This document shows positions 7,277-44,821 of a stretch of 51,536 nucleotides of DNA, piece by piece. A program made the translations under genes and the position numbers. The first letter of the stretch is position 1. Each line of letters starts with the position of its first letter. The notes under the pieces are model-generated. The model was not told where the DNA came from. It ran no database searches and worked only from the letters and a program-made list of their open reading frames with translations. Source of the DNA: Candidatus Uhrbacteria bacterium GW2011_GWF2_39_13 (GTDB lineage: Bacteria > Patescibacteriota > Patescibacteriia > UBA9934 > GWF2-40-263); NCBI GenBank assembly GCA_000993535.1, contig LBWG01000003.1, positions 1 through 51,536 on the forward strand. The letters run 5' to 3'.

Positions 7277-7385
7277 GCAAGGGTAAGATGTGGATAATTT
7301 TTTATTCACCAAACATCCCCAAGATTTGCGATGACAGGTGGGTGAAATTTTGTTACTCTGAGGCGGTATTTCTTTGGAGATTTTT

Positions 7386-14491: not shown

Positions 14492-14977
14492 ATGTTGATC
14501 AATTATGTTCTTGGAGGATCACTAGGGGGACTTGTTGCTTTTATGTTTGCCATACCAGCGATTCTTTTGGAAATCACTGAGTCTGGTAAGGTAAAAAATG
14601 TTCCTCTTCTTGTTGATGTGAAAACAATTTTTGGACTCAAGATTCGTCATAAGCAGGAAGTTTTTTTTATTGGACTGCTTCTTCATTTGATTTTTGGTTT
14701 TCTTTTTGGGTTTGTCTATGTCTTATTCGTTGAGCAAGGATGGCTTTTTATCACGCATGCCCCTTATACAATTTTTTCGTTGATTGTTTTTGCTTTTTTA
14801 AGTTGGGTCGTTGTAGGAGTGATCATTTATCCTCTGTTAGGTTTAGGGATGTTTGGATTAAAAGAAGGTCCTCGTGTCTGGCTTGAAACACTTACTTCTC
14901 ATTTCATTTTAGCTTTTTTTTTATGGCTTTTGGTGCAGTATTTTCAACCATTCTTTTTTAATCCTCCATTATATTAA
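14492..14977 (+). CDS. Four-helix integral membrane protein, unknown
   Basis: 161 residues and strongly hydrophobic, with about four TM segments: NYVLGGSLGGLVAFMFAIPAILL, VFFIGLLLHLIFGFLFGFVYVLF, FSLIVFAFLSWVVVGVIIYPLLG and HFILAFFLWLLVQYF. A conserved-looking loop (GLGMFGLKEGPRVWLETL) lies before the last helix. It is reminiscent of small DUF-type membrane proteins, but I cannot assign a family. TATAAG lies 4 nt before the ATG. xseA begins 2 nt after its stop, so it probably shares the transcript with xseA-xseB. Confidence 0.7.
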   Translation: MLINYVLGGSLGGLVAFMFAIPAILLEITESGKVKNVPLLVDVKTIFGLKIRHKQEVFFIGLLLHLIFGFLFGFVYVLFVEQGWLFITHAPYTIFSLIVFAFLSWVVVGVIIYPLLGLGMFGLKEGPRVWLETLTSHFILAFFLWLLVQYFQPFFFNPPLY

Positions 14978-18201: not shown

Positions 18202-18220
18202 TTTCCTCGAACTGAAGATT

Positions 18221-18312
18221 TACCGTAGACCACAGGCGACTCTGTTGAAGAGTAGAAGTCCCGTGCAGGTGAGCATCTTTCCTTTTTAGAAGGGAAAACA
18301 AGTGTTCTACGG
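18221..18312 (+). ncRNA. Ribosomal protein L10 leader RNA
   Basis: The 5' region of the rplJ-rplL transcript. CCGTAGA (18223-18229) pairs with TCTACGG (18306-18312), closing a domain that contains ACAGGCGACTC and GTCCCGTGCAGGTGAGCATC, the latter resembling the conserved CAGGUGA-type L10/L12 binding core of the L10 leader family. Binding of the L10(L12) complex would cause autogenous repression. Position and structure agree; a covariance-model search was not possible. Confidence 0.75.
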
Positions 18313-18338
18313 CGTAAAATCCGTAGTTTATTTATTTT
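18307..18338 (+). terminator. Attenuator hairpin competing with the L10 leader closing stem
   Basis: CTACGG (18307-18312) can pair either with the 5' strand of the L10 leader or with CCGTAG (18321-18326), which is followed by TTTATTTATTTTT. Mutually exclusive pairing with a T-rich tail is the expected layout for termination control by L10 binding. Confidence 0.6.
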
Positions 18339-18352
18339 TAAAGGTCGAACAA

Positions 18353-18480
18353 AGATCTTTCAAAAAATCATGATCTTACGGTTTACGGGCGCCCGTCGAT
18401 CCCACTCTCCCTATTCTAAATAGGGTTCGCGGGACTCGACAGCCCGTGCGCCGTAATCTCATTGATTTTTTGAAAGATCT
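18353..18480 (+). repeat. Structured element E1, copy in front of rplJ
   Basis: A 128-nt near-complete dyad. The outer stem AGATCTTTCAAAAAATCA pairs perfectly with its complement (18 bp). An internal loop TGATC/TCTCAT follows, then stem TTACGG/CCGTAA, stem ACGGGC/GCCCGT, stem GTCGA/TCGAC, stem TCCCAC/GCGGGA (one mismatch) and an apical hairpin CCCTATT-CTA-AATAGGG. GCCCGT occurs twice, so ACGGGC has two possible partners. It ends 11 nt before the rplJ ATG and leaves no room for an ordinary ribosome-binding site. See E2 and E3 for the homologous copies. Confidence 0.85.
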
Positions 18481-18491
18481 CGATATTCATT

Positions 18492-27280: not shown

Positions 27281-29258
27281 TACCATAAAACAAAAAAAGA
27301 GACGGACACGTCTTGTCCGAATTATTTTTTTATTCTTTTTCTTTGCGATTCTTTTTTGGATCATGTCTCTTCTTGTTGCTTGCGCCTTTGTCGCTGTCCA
27401 AATACTCGATGCAAAAGAGGATATGCTTAAAGCAAAAGCGTTTGCTCAAGAGCTGGTTTTTGAAGACGCACAAACGTCTTTGCAAGAAGCTGTTGATTCG
27501 TTTGACTCTGCAAGAGGAGGTTTGATGGTGATTGATTCTGTGAAGTGGGTTCCTGTTGTTGGGCATTCTATTGAATTATTTGCCGATAGCATTGATTCCA
27601 GCCGGTTATTTATTGAAGCCTTGGTTCCTTTGTTTGAATTAGGAACTGATCTGATGCGTTTGGCAGGTCTTTCAAAGGAGGAACTCGCACAGATTCAAGA
27701 GGGGATTACTCCAGAGATTACCTTTGATGATCTTTCTTCAGAAACCAAACAAGCTATTTTGGCACGGTTAAGTGCTTCTGCGGAAGATTTAGATTTGCTT
27801 CTTGCGCGCATGGATATTGTAAATGAAGAAATTGTTTTGTTATCACAAAATGTCCAGATAGAACCCTTTCTCGTTTTTTTGGATCCAATAAAAAAACAGA
27901 TGGATCAAATGCGAGAATCACTTGGTATCCTTTCTATTGGGGCTCGTCTTCTGCCGGATTTTGCTGGATTAGATCAACCAACTACCTTGTTACTTCTTTT
28001 TTTGAATAATACAGAATTGAGACCTGCGGGAGGATTTATTGGATCTTACGGTGTTCTTGAAACATTTGCCGGAGACATTACTCAATTAGAAACAGCAGAT
28101 ACTTACACGCTTGATGATGCAGCCGCATCTGAGATTGTGCGAATACCTCCCGTGCCTTTACAAACTTACAATGCGACAACTAAATGGTTTTTTCGAGACG
28201 CAAACTGGTCGCCAGATTTTGCGGTTTCTTCACAACAAGCGATTTCTTTGTTTCTTGAAGAAGTAGGTTTTATTAAAGATCTCACAGACATCCCTTCAGC
28301 AGCCCTGTTTCATGGGGTGATTGGAGTCACACCAACATATCTGTCCGATCTTTTGGCTATAACAGGTCCAATCACGGTTGGATCTCAGACATTTACGAGT
28401 GAAAATATTATTGACACGCTCGAATATCAGGTTGAATTTGGATATCAGCTACAAGGGATCCCGGTTCATCAACGAAAAGCTCTTTTGGCTGATTTAGTGA
28501 ATGAGCTTAAAACACGCCTCTATCAACTCCCGTCTAAACGTTGGGAAGAGGTGCTTGCAATCACCCAAAAAGCATTCAAGGAGAAACAACTTCTTCTCTA
28601 TAGTGCAAACCCTCAAACACAAGAGATATTAGTGAATGTAGGCTGGGCTGGTTCTGTCTCTTCTTCTACGAGTGATACCCTTATGGTCGTGGATGCCAAC
28701 CTAGCCAGTTTAAAGTCGGATCCAGCCGTTGAACGTTCTACACAATATGAGGTGTTTAAAAATGCTTCAGATCAGTGGATTGGAAGAATCTCTATTGCCT
28801 ATAATCATAAAGGAACTTTTGACTGGAAAACCACTCGTTATCGAACGTATACTAGAGTCTATCTTCCTTTAGGGTCTAAGCTTATTCGATCTAGTGGAAG
28901 TTGGCTAAATGATAAAACACAAAATCCAACCAAGACTATAGGTTCCGTAGATCAGATGGATGAATTAGGCTTTACTTCTTTTGGTGTGTTTACCTCTGTA
29001 GAGCCGGGTGAACAAAATAATCTTGTATTCGAGTTTCAGCTTTCTCCTCAGGTTATTGAACAGATTGAAACAGGTCAGTATGATTTAACTGTTCTGAAAC
29101 AGGCTGGATCTCAAAATAATGCGTTGACGATTGACCTTGATTTTGATAAGAATGTGACACACGCGAGACCTTCAGAAGATGCTCAAGAATGGGGAGATGA
29201 TATCTATCGATTGAACACCATTTTAGATCACGACCTAGAAATTTACATCTCGCTGTGA
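27240..29258 (+). CDS. DUF4012-family membrane-anchored protein
   Basis: 672 residues from ATG 27240. This overlaps the upstream GT2 by 41 nt in another frame; the track start at 27204 overlaps more. N-terminal basic patch KQKKRRTRLVRII, TM helix FLFFFFAILFWIMSLLVACAFVAVQI, a helical extracytoplasmic region, then the DUF4012 core TLLLLFLNNTELRPAGGFIGSYGVLE with later YLSDLLAITGPITVGSQTFTSEN. DUF4012 proteins are surface-exposed, often sit beside glycosyltransferases and resemble LytR-like domains distantly; the reaction is unknown. Its stop codon is the first base pairs of element E2. Confidence 0.85.
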   Translation: MSHTTNFLHSIETDTIKQKKRRTRLVRIIFLFFFFAILFWIMSLLVACAFVAVQILDAKEDMLKAKAFAQELVFEDAQTSLQEAVDSFDSARGGLMVIDSVKWVPVVGHSIELFADSIDSSRLFIEALVPLFELGTDLMRLAGLSKEELAQIQEGITPEITFDDLSSETKQAILARLSASAEDLDLLLARMDIVNEEIVLLSQNVQIEPFLVFLDPIKKQMDQMRESLGILSIGARLLPDFAGLDQPTTLLLLFLNNTELRPAGGFIGSYGVLETFAGDITQLETADTYTLDDAAASEIVRIPPVPLQTYNATTKWFFRDANWSPDFAVSSQQAISLFLEEVGFIKDLTDIPSAALFHGVIGVTPTYLSDLLAITGPITVGSQTFTSENIIDTLEYQVEFGYQLQGIPVHQRKALLADLVNELKTRLYQLPSKRWEEVLAITQKAFKEKQLLLYSANPQTQEILVNVGWAGSVSSSTSDTLMVVDANLASLKSDPAVERSTQYEVFKNASDQWIGRISIAYNHKGTFDWKTTRYRTYTRVYLPLGSKLIRSSGSWLNDKTQNPTKTIGSVDQMDELGFTSFGVFTSVEPGEQNNLVFEFQLSPQVIEQIETGQYDLTVLKQAGSQNNALTIDLDFDKNVTHARPSEDAQEWGDDIYRLNTILDHDLEIYISL

Positions 29259-29383
29259 TGATGACGAAACTCGCGATCTTTGCGTTCACGGGCGCCCGTC
29301 GACCCCGCTCTCCCTACGGTGAGTAGGGTTCGCGGGGCTCGACAGCCCGTTCACGCAAATCTCATCGAGTTTCCTCATTCATC
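29257..29383 (+). repeat. Structured element E2, copy in front of mreB
   Basis: A 127-nt dyad homologous to E1. The outer stem GATGATGACGAAACTCG pairs imperfectly with CGAGTTTCCTCATTCATC, followed by internal loop CGATC/TCTCAT, stem TTTGCG/CGCAAA, stem ACGGGC/GCCCGT (GCCCGT present twice), stem GTCGA/TCGAC, stem CCCCGC/GCGGGG and apical hairpin CCCTAC-GGTGA-GTAGGG. It begins within the DUF4012 stop codon and ends 14 nt before the mreB ATG, filling the whole intergenic space. Confidence 0.85.
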
Positions 29384-29397
29384 ACTTTCTGTAGCCT

Positions 29398-30402
29398 ATG
29401 TTTCAAAGAAAAATTGGTATTGATTTAGGAACAACGACGGTTCTTGTTTATGTTCCTAAACGGGGAATTATTATTCACGAGCCTTCTGTGGTTGCTGTTT
29501 CGTGTATAGATAAGAAAGTGTTAGCGGTAGGAAAAGAAGCTAAAGACATGTTAGGTCGTACTCCTGATACGATCGTTGCTCGTCGTCCTCTTAAAGATGG
29601 GGTTATTGCAGACTATCGAACCACGGAGGCCATGTTGCGTTATTTTATTAACAAAGCTTTGGGTGGTGTTCGATTATTTCGTCCTGAGGTAATGGTAGCG
29701 GTTCCAGGTGGTATTACCTCAACAGAACGTCGTGCCGTGATTGATGCCACGTTGGCGGCGGGTGCCAAAGCTGCGTACATTATTAAAGAACCCATCGTGG
29801 CGGCTATTGGAGCGAACATTCCGATTGGTTCTCCTTCAGGGCACATGATTATAGATATCGGAGGAGGGACTTCTGAAATGGCTGTGATTTCTCTTGGAGG
29901 GATTGTGGCATCAGAATCCGTCCGTATTGGAGGAGTAAAATTTGATTCTTCTATTTCTGAGTATATTCGCAGAAAGTATGGACTGGCTGTAGGAGAACGC
30001 ACAGCCGAAGACATTAAGATCCAAATTGGAGCTGCCATGTATTTACCAGACAAATTAGTGATGGAAGTTAAGGGTCGTGACATGGTTACGGGACTCCCAA
30101 AAATTATTGAAGTCACATCAGATGATGTTACAGCTGCCATTCAAAATGAACTTGAGGGAATTATTAACACAGTCAAAGAAGTGCTTCATAAGACTCCGCC
30201 TGAACTTTCAGCGGACGTGATGGATAAAGGAATTGTTCTCTCTGGTGGATCTTCCCAGTTGCGAAATTTAGATATGCTGATTGCTGAGGCCACCGGTGTC
30301 CCAACCTTTTTGGCTGAGGACCCACAACAGTGTGTTGCAAAGGGAACAGGAATTGCTCTTGAAAACCTTGAAGCCTATAAACGATCCATTTTTACTTCGT
30401 AG
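29398..30402 (+). CDS. mreB: Rod-shape-determining protein MreB
   Basis: 334 residues, actin fold. Phosphate-1 motif KIGIDLGTTTVLVYVPKRGIIIHEPSVVA, then RRPLKDGVIADYRTTEAML, VMVAVPGGITSTERRAVIDA, IKEPIVAAIGANIPI, phosphate-2 GHMIIDIGGGTSEMAVISLGGIV and the adenosine motif GIVLSGGSSQLRNLDMLI. It forms membrane-associated filaments that organise wall synthesis. mreC/mreD do not follow. Position after GT2/DUF4012 genes fits an envelope block; element E2 occupies its leader. Confidence 0.96.
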   Translation: MFQRKIGIDLGTTTVLVYVPKRGIIIHEPSVVAVSCIDKKVLAVGKEAKDMLGRTPDTIVARRPLKDGVIADYRTTEAMLRYFINKALGGVRLFRPEVMVAVPGGITSTERRAVIDATLAAGAKAAYIIKEPIVAAIGANIPIGSPSGHMIIDIGGGTSEMAVISLGGIVASESVRIGGVKFDSSISEYIRRKYGLAVGERTAEDIKIQIGAAMYLPDKLVMEVKGRDMVTGLPKIIEVTSDDVTAAIQNELEGIINTVKEVLHKTPPELSADVMDKGIVLSGGSSQLRNLDMLIAEATGVPTFLAEDPQQCVAKGTGIALENLEAYKRSIFTS

Positions 30403-30427: not shown

Positions 30428-30510
30428 CCCTGAGCTTGTCGAAGGGGCAAAGTATTCTTTACTGTTCACCCTTCGACTCCGCTCGCGTTGGTCGCTTCGC
30501 TCAGGGAATA
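30428..30510. repeat. REP-like palindromic repeat R1
   Basis: CCCTGAGCTTGTCGAAGGG and, 22 nt later, the inverted arm CCCTTCGACTCCGCTCG ... CGCTCAGGGAATAT. This is the TTCCCTGAGC...GTCGAAGGG motif repeated between 30.4 and 37.2 kb. It lies between mreB and a GT4 gene. Confidence 0.8.
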
Positions 30511-30520
30511 TTCACATTTT

Positions 30521-31684: not shown

Positions 31685-31721
31685 TAAAGACGTATTAGCT
31701 TGTAGCAAGTTTCTCTCAATA

Positions 31722-31816
31722 TTCCCTGAGCGAGGAGTCATCGACGAGTCGAAGGGCACAGATACGCTTAACCCTTCGACTCCGGTTTGTCGAACAAACC
31801 TCCGCTCAGGGAATAT
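31722..31816. repeat. REP-like palindromic repeat R2
   Basis: ATTCCCTGAGCGAGGAGTC ... GAGTCGAAGGG followed by the inverted arm CCCTTCGACTCC ... CCGCTCAGGGAATATA. Same family as R1, between the GT4 gene and the TrmB-type regulator. The right end abuts the regulator's promoter region. Confidence 0.8.
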
Positions 31817-31845
31817 ATAGTGTGATAGTACTTAAATTAAACTCC

Positions 31846-32800: not shown

Positions 32801-32953
32801 GGTTCACCTTTTAAGACACGGGATTCCTCCTTATAATTGGCAGGTCCTGTCTACATATCGTTTCCCCTTTAGAAACGATACTAAAATTTAGCAGTAAAAA
32901 CCCTCCAAGTCAATCCATATTTGTTGTAGAGGTTAGACAAAAACCCCACATCA

Positions 32954-32991
32954 TATTCCCTGAGCGAGGAGTCCTCGACGAGTCGAAGGGG
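32954..32991. repeat. REP-like palindromic repeat R3
   Basis: TATTCCCTGAGCGAGGAG and TCCTCGACGAGTCGAAGGGG. It is the exact inverse of R5 (37139-37175); the pair brackets island A. Confidence 0.8.
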
Positions 32992-36390: not shown

Positions 36391-36896
36391 GCGAACTCCT
36401 TCGGGACTCGGCTTGTGCCTGTCCCATCAAGTTGGTGTGACCGCATCGACATTCGACACGGTCACGATTTCCAGTAATTCTTTTCTATTTCTTCACCCTT
36501 ATGGAGGTAATGAAGCAGTGATCCGGGACAAGTCCCTGATATGCTTCGTGATCGCAATTGGTGTGGAATGAGTAAGTCCGGCGACAAGCTCAGGACCTAG
36601 TCATCCACTTAGCGATCCACGCTTGAGTTCCTCTTACGAGGTTCTCAGGACGTGTGACTCTCTCCTCCATGAGGCTGAAGAAATTGGTGATGCAAAAACC
36701 GACTGGTTTTATGCATGTGTTCCTGGGTGAGGGAAGTAGCATCGTACCAATCGGTTTTTGATGTGCGCCAAACAGTGACTACTGTATGGTGTACCTCTTT
36801 GACCGTGTATCGTGGTCTAACGAACTCTCTCCCCAGAAAGTTTTTTGTTTTGTTGTGATGTGCGATCTCGTTTGCTTGTGTGATCTTGATAGTCAC
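36391..36896 (-). other. Long structured 5' leader of island A
   Basis: About 500 nt between the promoter and the first gene. Contains paired arms AAAAACCGA/TCGGTTTTT enclosing about 50 nt (36714-36768), ACAGT/ACTGT, and further inverted segments such as CTTGAG/CTCAGG. The 83-codon frame 36645-36896 starts with a GTG touching the -10 box, so it cannot be translated from that start; I read this region as leader RNA. Confidence 0.5.
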
Positions 36897-36925
36897 AGAA
36901 TATCATTTTTTGACAACTTTGTCAA
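36897..36925 (-). promoter_or_regulatory. Island A promoter TTGACA-N17-TATTCT with palindromic operator
   Basis: On the minus strand TTGACA (complement of 36920-36925), 17 nt, TATTCT (complement of 36897-36902). The -35 is part of the 16-bp palindrome TTGACAAAGTTGTCAA (36910-36925), i.e. TTGAC-N6-GTCAA; the same format occurs at the island B promoter. Confidence 0.75.
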
Positions 36926-36950
36926 GACCTCCACCTAGATAAAATACATT

Positions 36951-36972
36951 ATTTATCTAAATTTAGATAAAT
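36951..36972. promoter_or_regulatory. Perfect 22-bp palindrome upstream of the island A promoter
   Basis: Half-site ATTTATCTAAA with its exact complement; a third TATCTA half-site lies at about 36936-36941. Located 26-47 bp upstream of the -35, a usual position for an activator or repressor site. Confidence 0.6.
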
Positions 36973-37020
36973 TGTATAGTACATATTTTGTTTACAAGTA
37001 CGGACATAGATTCGAATATG

Positions 37021-37064
37021 CCCCTTCGACTCCGCTCCCCTGGGTCGCTCCGCTCAGGGAATAT
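37021..37064. repeat. REP-like palindromic repeat R4
   Basis: CCCCTTCGACTCCGCTCCCC, TGGGTCGCTCCGCTCAGGGA, ATAT. Same family as R1-R3. Confidence 0.75.
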
Positions 37065-37138
37065 GATGTTTTATGTACTGTTCGTACATCAATACTGGCT
37101 CAGTGAATATAGTGTTTTATGATTCATACAGCAGATAG

Positions 37139-37229
37139 CTCTTCGACTCGTCGAGGACTCCTCGCTCAGGGAATATTTATTTTTATATTCCCTGAGCACA
37201 GGCTCGTTCGACGAGCCGGAGTCGAAGGG
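37139..37229. repeat. REP-like repeats R5 and R6, head to head
   Basis: R5 CTTCGACTCGTCGAGGAC ... GCTCAGGGAATAT and R6 TATTCCCTGAGC ... GAGTCGAAGGG face each other across about 10 nt. R5 is the exact inverse of R3. holB begins 31 nt after R6. Confidence 0.8.
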
Positions 37230-37242
37230 TTCATTGTCGTGG

Positions 37243-37248
37243 TATAAT
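37243..37248 (+). promoter_or_regulatory. TATAAT box upstream of holB
   Basis: A perfect TATAAT 11 nt before ATG 37260, directly after REP R6; no clear -35 and no Shine-Dalgarno sequence. Confidence 0.5.
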
Positions 37249-37259
37249 CTCTAAAGTCT

Positions 37260-38216
37260 ATGTTTCCAAGTATTATTGGGCACAATCGCATTCAAGAGGT
37301 TCTTTTGCGCATGCTTGAGCACGGCACATTGCCGCATGCTTTGTTGTTTGTGGGCTCACAAGGTCTTGGGAAGACAACGATGGCCCAAGCACTTATTCGT
37401 CACCTTCTTGGTTCTTCGACTCAAGTACAAAACCATCCAGACTATCAAGAAGTACATCGTCTTGTTGATGAAAAGACAGAAAAACGTAAAACGTCCATTT
37501 CTGTAAAGCAAATTCGAGAAGTGACCGCACGTCTTGGACTTACCTCCTTATCTGGAGGATGGAAGATCGTTTTTTTTGAGCAAGCACAGTTTTTGTCACA
37601 AGGGGCAGCGAATGCGTTATTGAAAACACTCGAAGAACCTAAAGGAAAGACCTTGTTTATTTTTTGCACTGAACATCTGGAGCAAATTCCTGCAACCATT
37701 GCTTCCCGTTGCCAGGTAATGCGCTTTAATCAGGTTTCACGTCAGGAAATAGGGGATACTCTTGTGCGTTTGGGATTTAGCCCTGTTGATGCCGCGCTTG
37801 CTGCCTCAATGTCGTTGGGACGACCTGGAAAAGCTTTGCGTTTTTTGAAAGAGAGTCTGTATCGCTGCCAATGGGAGACAAACGTTGGACAAGCTTTAGC
37901 CTTTTTTTCAGCCAGTCTTCCAGAGCGTCTGGCACAGGTGATGACATTGATTCCAAAAACAGACACGCAAAAAAATGAATCTCTCTTAGACCTGCTGGAT
38001 CACTGGGAGCTTGTGTGTCGGGATGTGCTTTTTAAACAGTTACATCTGGAAGAAATTCAGGTTTTTTCTCAAGATGTGCGAATCAACTCCCTTGTCCATC
38101 ATCTGCCTCTGCCTTCATTATTGTCTATCTTTGAACGTCTCAACCAGGTGCGACGGGCGATCCCGCGTCATGTAAATCCACATTTAGCCTTAGAACATAT
38201 TACTATCGGCTTTTAA
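37260..38216 (+). CDS. holB: DNA polymerase III delta-prime subunit
   Basis: 318 residues, AAA+ clamp-loader subunit. N-terminal FPSIIGHNRIQEVLLRMLEHGTLPHALLFVGSQGLGKTTMAQAL has the Walker A variant GSQGLGKTT. ISVKQIREVTARLGLTSLSGGWKIVFFEQAQFLSQGAANALLKTLEEP contains the typical sensor region, then IASRCQVMRF. The usual zinc module (four cysteines) between Walker A and the switch is missing here, shortening the protein. It works with DnaX and HolA to load the sliding clamp. It starts a run of housekeeping genes reaching the tRNA cluster. Confidence 0.92.
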   Translation: MFPSIIGHNRIQEVLLRMLEHGTLPHALLFVGSQGLGKTTMAQALIRHLLGSSTQVQNHPDYQEVHRLVDEKTEKRKTSISVKQIREVTARLGLTSLSGGWKIVFFEQAQFLSQGAANALLKTLEEPKGKTLFIFCTEHLEQIPATIASRCQVMRFNQVSRQEIGDTLVRLGFSPVDAALAASMSLGRPGKALRFLKESLYRCQWETNVGQALAFFSASLPERLAQVMTLIPKTDTQKNESLLDLLDHWELVCRDVLFKQLHLEEIQVFSQDVRINSLVHHLPLPSLLSIFERLNQVRRAIPRHVNPHLALEHITIGF

Positions 38217-44558: not shown

Positions 44559-44634
44559 GCCGAGATAGCTCAGTTGGTAGAGCAACGGTTTTGTAAACCG
44601 TAGGTCACGGGTTCGAGTCCCGTTCTCGGCTCCA
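44559..44634 (+). tRNA. tRNA-Thr (anticodon TGT)
   Basis: 76 nt. Acceptor GCCGAGA/TCTCGGC, anticodon stem ACGGT/ACCGT with loop TTTGTAA (anticodon TGT), T-loop TTCGAGT, encoded CCA at 44632-44634. Element E3 begins at the next base. Confidence 0.95.
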
Positions 44635-44756
44635 GATTGTTTCAAAAATCGCGATCTTTCGTTTCATGGGGCCCCATTGGCTCGTCACCGTATCTGAATA
44701 CGGCTCTGTCGCCAATCACCCCATTCAACGAAATCTCATCGATTTTTGAAACAATC
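44635..44756 (+). repeat. Structured element E3, copy between tRNA-Thr and rpmG
   Basis: A 122-nt dyad homologous to E1/E2. Outer stem GATTGTTTCAAAAATCG with its perfect complement (17 bp), internal loop CGATC/TCTCAT, stem TTTCGT/ACGAAA, stem ATGGGG/CCCCAT (CCCCAT present twice), stem TTGGC/GCCAA, and apical hairpin CCGTAT-CTGA-ATACGG. It begins directly after the tRNA CCA and ends 65 nt before rpmG. Arms differ from E1/E2 in sequence but keep pairing. Confidence 0.85.
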
Positions 44757-44821
44757 TTTCAAATCGGGTCTATTGACTTTTTTTCTTAGAATCGTTACGC
44801 TTTTGTCGAAATTATCCTATT

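Follow-up and report, generated by a model that had tools for sequence, protein, structure and literature searches.

The hairpin that fills the space between a DUF4012 gene and mreB in Candidatus Uhrbacteria bacterium GW2011_GWF2_39_13 is almost certainly a mobile insertion. The data as a whole are best explained by a family of non-autonomous, MITE-like elements, which are probably moved in trans and may be recognized through their folded minus strand. The window that was analysed is a stretch of 51,536 nucleotides (contig LBWG01000003.1) and holds three copies, designated E1, E2 and E3 (Table 1). In the following, G000 is the genome of the window, G005 is that of the nearest species, and all other G numbers denote relatives in the same order.

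E2, the copy in front of mreB, is a near-perfect hairpin with G29255-C29385 as its outermost pair, at most 2 nt off the limits given in the initial annotation. Its plus strand (29250-29397) folds with -76.2 kcal/mol (z -7.8; none of 200 shuffles reached this value), and the minus strand folds better (-86.9 kcal/mol, z -10.2). A covariance model built from 12 aligned G000 copies, E2 included, matches it with an E value of 1.1e-24. The stop codon TGA of the DUF4012 gene (PF13196), at 29256-29258, sits within the 5' arm, and only 12 nt are left between the end of E2 and the ATG of mreB (PF06723) at 29398. With a fold far beyond chance, this confirms the earlier description of a structured element filling the gap. 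E1 and E3 share the architecture of E2 by fold and covariance model, and the outer stem of E2 contains a bulge and mismatches which theirs lack, both as annotated. On the minus strand, the conserved cores of E2 form a bulged A, a U.G pair and a tandem G.A/A.G loop. An Rfam search of the window returned tRNAs only; for E2 there was no credible match, and no family gathering cut-off was passed.

Table 1. Coordinates in the window of the three element copies and of the parts and flanks of E2
Feature	Position	Strand	Basis
E1, copy between rplJ leader and rplJ (PF00466)	18352..18481	-	covariance model; common to G000 and G005, absent in other relatives read
E2, copy of mobile hairpin element	29255..29385	-	strand chosen by better fold and wobble bias; covariance model match, empty sites in relatives
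E2 5' outer arm GTGATGATGACGAAACTCG, source of present DUF4012 stop	29255..29273		sequence
E2 3' outer arm CGAGTTTCCTCATTCATCAC, complements 5' arm imperfectly	29366..29385		sequence, fold
E2 5' conserved core AAACTCGCGATCTT	29267..29280		copy alignments, pattern scan
E2 3' conserved core AATCTCATCGAGTTT	29358..29372		copy alignments, minus-strand fold
Left copy of likely eroded target duplication, TCGCTG	29250..29255	+	sequence compared with relatives
Right copy of likely target duplication, TTTCTG	29386..29391	+	sequence compared with relatives
CTGTAG, probable remnant of original DUF4012 Leu-stop end, now apart from the gene	29389..29394	+	relatives end in Leu-TAG/TAA a few nt before ATG
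E3, copy between tRNA gene and rpmG (named from its reading frame)	44633..44758	-	covariance model; divergent copy after same tRNA in G005

A whole-genome DNA search of G000 yielded some 20 dispersed copies. With the covariance model, the number for G000 came to about 25 distinct copies; the model also gave 75 matches in G005 and detected the family in 30 of the 38 relatives of the order. Among 286 genomes of the phylum, searched with strict filters, a match was obtained in G000 only. With ordinary filters, 38 genomes of the class were searched; apart from G000, a single genome matched, which belongs to the same order, and other families gave no match. To date, the hairpin family is known only from a single order of ultra-small bacteria from groundwater, Candidatus Uhrbacteria. 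Carriage by phages was rejected, as none of three pattern matches in viral contigs was upheld by the covariance model. A subfamily with arms TAGGACTTTCTCATTTGG (G005 contig C15, 48210-48348 and 54396-54522) has the same architecture on the minus strand and is found only weakly by the model; the family is thus probably larger than counted. In versions of about 160 nt (loci L069, L071, L072 and L076, on G000 contigs C11, C7 and C1), the loop itself contains a further palindrome, GCCCGAACGAACGTTCGACGGTCGGGC, so that one hairpin is nested within another.

Evidence for insertion was collected from 172 copies with flanks, drawn from G000 and its relatives. Watson-Crick pairing between the ends is 95% and 89% inside the element and 66% at the last position, and falls to 24%, the background level, one base further out. 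The element therefore has defined ends, which are terminal inverted repeats of 18-19 paired bp with a sharp boundary and without a fixed sequence. Direct repeats of at least 6 nt surround 30 of the 172 copies, compared with about 4 expected from shuffled flanks. In the 54 copies with GAGA-type ends, many exact flank repeats of 4-6 nt were found (taaac, catct, aggga, attca, tcaat, cataag), and the in-register flank identity over 4 nt is 0.51 vs 0.33. Target duplications are short, variable and often eroded; that of E2 retains 4 of 6 matches. Over 50 kb, the window is syntenic with contig C15 of G005, and elements present in only one of the two account for many of the alignment gaps. The cleanest filled/empty pair is at window 14958-14962; in G005, TTAAT stands on either side of an element at this site. 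The insertion part of the earlier proposal, an element that inserts just upstream of start codons, is supported by copy number, target duplications and the precise empty sites in relatives. The restriction to start codons proved too narrow, as the element also occurs within genes and in the space between convergent ones.

The idea that the arms are derived from the target arose at a G005 site (window 7378-7385) that resembled an inverted copy of the target, but it was rejected since other empty sites hold unrelated target sequence. A composite transposon was likewise rejected for G000 contig C1, 94716-96766, where two inverted copies enclose ordinary genes, without any sign of a transposase. 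On contig C11 of G000 (36433-38096, loci L070 and L071), two inverted copies surround a gene of 388 aa without a Pfam match; in G005, no more than about 110 nt separate the flanks of this block. The appearance is that of a composite insertion, with no transposase seen in the block. A second, BIME-like palindromic family, CCCTTCGACTC...GCTCAGGGAATAT, also occurs in the window (30469-30511, 31719-31817, 32953-32990, 37022-37064 and 37134-37231). Its pair at 31719-31817 is missing from the matching G005 site (C15 71664); further members lie at G005 C15 77020 and 80753, and the G005 element at mreB harbours a related piece within it.

The initial annotation had proposed to compare the mreB upstream region in close relatives, and this comparison came out in favor of a mobile element. 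Eleven relatives have an empty site without a hairpin: their DUF4012 stop either adjoins the mreB ATG or precedes it by no more than about 35 nt. Four other relatives have unrelated spacers at the junction; those of G002, G010, G015 and G016 (loci L100, L098, L095 and L097) are unrelated inverted-repeat spacers, so that palindromic inserts seem to be tolerated at, or attracted to, this junction. In G005, which has the same MreB protein as G000, an element of different sequence and opposite orientation occupies the same stop codon; it shows a likely duplication TTGTA and contains a nested repeat. This G005 copy is independent of E2. Loss of E2 from G005 before the present copy inserted at that place is possible, but needs more events. 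In G000, the junction reads TCGCTG, then the element, then TTTCTGTAGCCTATG, which suggests that the DUF4012 gene formerly ended in CTG TAG, that TCGCTG and TTTCTG are an eroded duplication, and that the stop codon TGA is now probably supplied by E2.

The copies in the window differ in their distribution. E1 is found in G000 and G005 (with the duplication AACAT in G005) and not in the other relatives read at rplJ, and E2 is absent from G005 and from every other relative read. Since E1 is common to both genomes and E2 is not, E1 is most likely the older insertion. E1 has a perfect stem, and the imperfect stem of E2 is thus without bearing on age; the earlier suggestion that E2 is an older or degenerating copy is contradicted by this distribution. 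In most relatives, rplJ is preceded by a conserved, structured-looking leader ending in AAAGGTCGAAC (window about 18210-18350; loci L106-L120), which has no Rfam match; E1 is inserted between this leader and the rplJ start.

All three copies in the window have the same orientation just upstream of genes and form a stable hairpin, as would be expected of an ancestral cis-regulatory RNA in the 5' UTRs of mreB, rplJ and rpmG, the first of the functions considered in the initial annotation. We regard this explanation as highly improbable. No element precedes mreB in 11 relatives, the copy at this gene in G005 has the opposite orientation, and the rplJ copy occurs only in G000 and G005 among the relatives read. 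For 161 copies, the orientation of the flanking genes relative to the element is near random, with 62 copies ++, 45 --, 31 divergent and 23 convergent; these counts are approximate, as genes were called mechanically as longest ORFs. Some copies are part of proteins: a membrane protein of G000 is extended by 44 residues, absent from its G005 orthologue, through an in-frame copy (C12 7022-7152), and one G005 copy lies inside the reading frame of a P-type ATPase. The strand that is kept foldable (see below) is moreover antisense to mreB, rplJ and rpmG. As a general function, cis-regulation is refuted by the orientation and empty-site data. A stable intergenic hairpin could also be a bidirectional transcription terminator between genes, but base frequencies reveal no T run after the stem on either strand, and the element is therefore not an intrinsic terminator. 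Copies are also frequent between co-directional genes and occur inside genes, and a terminator is scarcely credible.

The two strands of the element are not equivalent. In the outer stem, read on the plus strand, A.C mismatches outnumber G.U mismatches by 62:16 (p 1.5e-7), and by 56:7 and 24:5 in the two inner helices; counted per element, A.C predominates in 68 and G.U in 9 (p 2.4e-12), these p-values being indicative only as the copies are related. When distinct sequence contexts were counted only once, 74 A.C and 22 G.U remained. The A.C cells of the plus strand are G.U wobbles on the minus strand. Both conserved internal loops, UC/UC on the plus strand, become tandem GA/GA on the minus strand (exact in 109 and 84 of the 172 copies), and a C/AU asymmetry corresponds there to a U.G pair and a bulged A (128 of the 172). 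The minus strand is the more stable one in 168 of the 172 copies. The covariance model was trained on the plus strand, so that any bias is expected to act against this result. These data show that the strand kept foldable is the minus strand, the complement of the one folded in the initial annotation. Given the near-random gene orientation, the need for folding more likely stems from the element's own cycle than from host mRNA. As an alternative, the asymmetry might be a mutational bias, C-to-T or A-to-G on the minus strand, that acts during mobilization.

The arms change in a coupled manner. The 12 aligned copies share a helix of 34 bp which is 96.3% paired even though both partners have changed in 20 of the 34 pairs. 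Its covariation score is 0.581; shuffled alignments give 0.151, and shifting the partner by 1-3 columns gives no more than 0.093. Among the 172 copies there are 148 distinct outer arms of 12 nt, with the weak consensus GAGACCTTTGC. At five sites that are filled in the same orientation in G000 and G005, both partners have changed in 20 pairs and only one partner in 8; at one of these sites (C10 21551), the two copies differ by a single one-sided change in those pairs. Many of the double changes at these common sites are transversions, without G.U intermediates. Coupled changes at common sites indicate correction of the arms in place, or selection, after insertion; the arms could be kept matched by template-switch correction between them or by selection. 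At the two most divergent of the common sites, replacement by another copy is possible.

According to the explanation we favor, a non-coding element of about 130 bp inserted at the DUF4012 stop codon just upstream of mreB, duplicating a few target bases. Copies would be moved in trans by a putative enzyme, and this enzyme or an intermediate would recognize the folded minus strand, as RNA or single-stranded DNA, and not a fixed terminal sequence. We infer this mode of recognition from two observations: pairing and internal loops persist despite free variation of the arm sequences, and the mismatch spectrum picks out the minus strand. Taken by itself, recognition of a folded single strand comes close to an even chance. 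More tentatively, the family may represent a structure-defined class of mobile elements, in which one folded strand is recognized, a target duplication of 4-6 bp is made, and the arms are constantly re-matched, their letters drifting together. The structure recognized would then be an arm of about 19 bp, a bulged A and two tandem G.A loops 7 bp apart, as RNA or single-stranded DNA.

The main competitor is a DDE-type MITE whose inverted ends are recognized as double strands, with arm pairing kept by template-switch correction and an asymmetry of mutational origin. It fits the 4-6 bp duplication, inverted ends, size and intergenic location, as well as the coupled transversions without G.U intermediates. 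We nevertheless consider it somewhat unlikely: the ends have no fixed sequence, given the many distinct outer arms, and the conserved tandem G.A loops and the mismatch bias single out one strand. In addition, scans of four genomes (G000, G005, G004 and G017) with the core motifs found that nearly all ends pair within short elements, and they revealed no autonomous relative and no IS with matching ends, although a distant IS could escape such scans.

Palindromes of the REPIN/REP type, moved by a Y1 (RAYT) transposase via a single-stranded DNA hairpin, are also dispersed and intergenic with one preferred folded strand, and REPINs are non-autonomous (PMC3116915). Such an origin is very improbable here. 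The element is 130 nt long, compared with REP units of 20-40 nt (PMC3733652), and it has target duplications. G017, G018 and G021 (8-16 copies; genomes 93-97% complete) are without a PF01797 match, whereas the copy-free G010 and G016 have 7-8 matches. The distributions of Y1 transposase and RVT_1 do not track copy number, in a test limited by incomplete genomes. A reverse transcriptase was rejected as mobilizer, as G005 has 75 copies without an RVT_1 match.

MITEs are as a rule shorter than 200 bp, non-coding and present in many dispersed copies, and their ends are usually shared with an autonomous IS, though such an IS is not known for most bacterial MITEs. The element, of about 130 bp and with many copies, terminal inverted repeats, target duplications and empty sites, is classed here as a variant of the MITE kind, outside RPE (compared by description only), ERIC, Correia, YPAL and REPIN. 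Integron attC sites occur in arrays with cassettes and are recombined by the integrase without target duplication; the copies of the element are dispersed and single with target duplications, which does not fit an attC site. REP units are tagged GTAG or CGTC; neither tag is present in the base frequencies of the element ends, and the element is one 130-nt hairpin. REPINs resemble it as non-autonomous palindromes in which structure matters, and differ in length, target duplications and the distribution of Y1 genes, which does not match that of the element. ERIC measures about 127 bp, and both ERIC and the Correia/NEMIS MITEs (Correia 107 or 155 bp) are similar to the element in size, stable transcript hairpin and intergenic location. 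They have TA ends, and Correia a 24-bp terminal repeat (PMC2229807), whereas the element has neither a TA rule nor a fixed terminus.

The element resembles Rickettsia palindromic elements (RPE) and YPAL of Yersinia as reviewed (PMC2229807, PMC10969869); the lack of a fixed end sequence, the order-wide co-variation and the strand asymmetry set the element apart from the reviewed systems. RPE are stem-loop palindromes of 105-146 bp in many dispersed copies that also lie in frame in proteins (PMC2229807), as the element does in the membrane protein mentioned above, with another copy inside the ATPase reading frame. RPE belong to another phylum, and, compared by description, differ in that the arms of the element co-vary over a whole order; target duplication is marked '?' for RPE in the review (PMC2229807) and is demonstrated here. 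YPAL/RU-2 is likewise palindromic and intergenic, without TA ends and with filled and empty sites and target duplications of variable length. It measures 168 bp, its inverted repeats are internal, and its duplications span 3-26 bp (PMC2229807) compared with about 4-6 in the element.

Full-text searches of a literature library gave no paper on such an element, and a review of prokaryotic MITEs makes no mention of Patescibacteria, a group for which little is recorded about small mobile elements. Covariation is usually taken to prove a regulatory RNA, but here the co-varying arms mark a mobile element, a trap that matters for RNA discovery pipelines. The strand asymmetry turns the transposition intermediate into a testable question. 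For the organisms themselves, the family is abundant in streamlined genomes, where it lies between adjacent essential genes, lengthens proteins in frame and, at mreB, appears to have replaced the stop codon of the DUF4012 gene.
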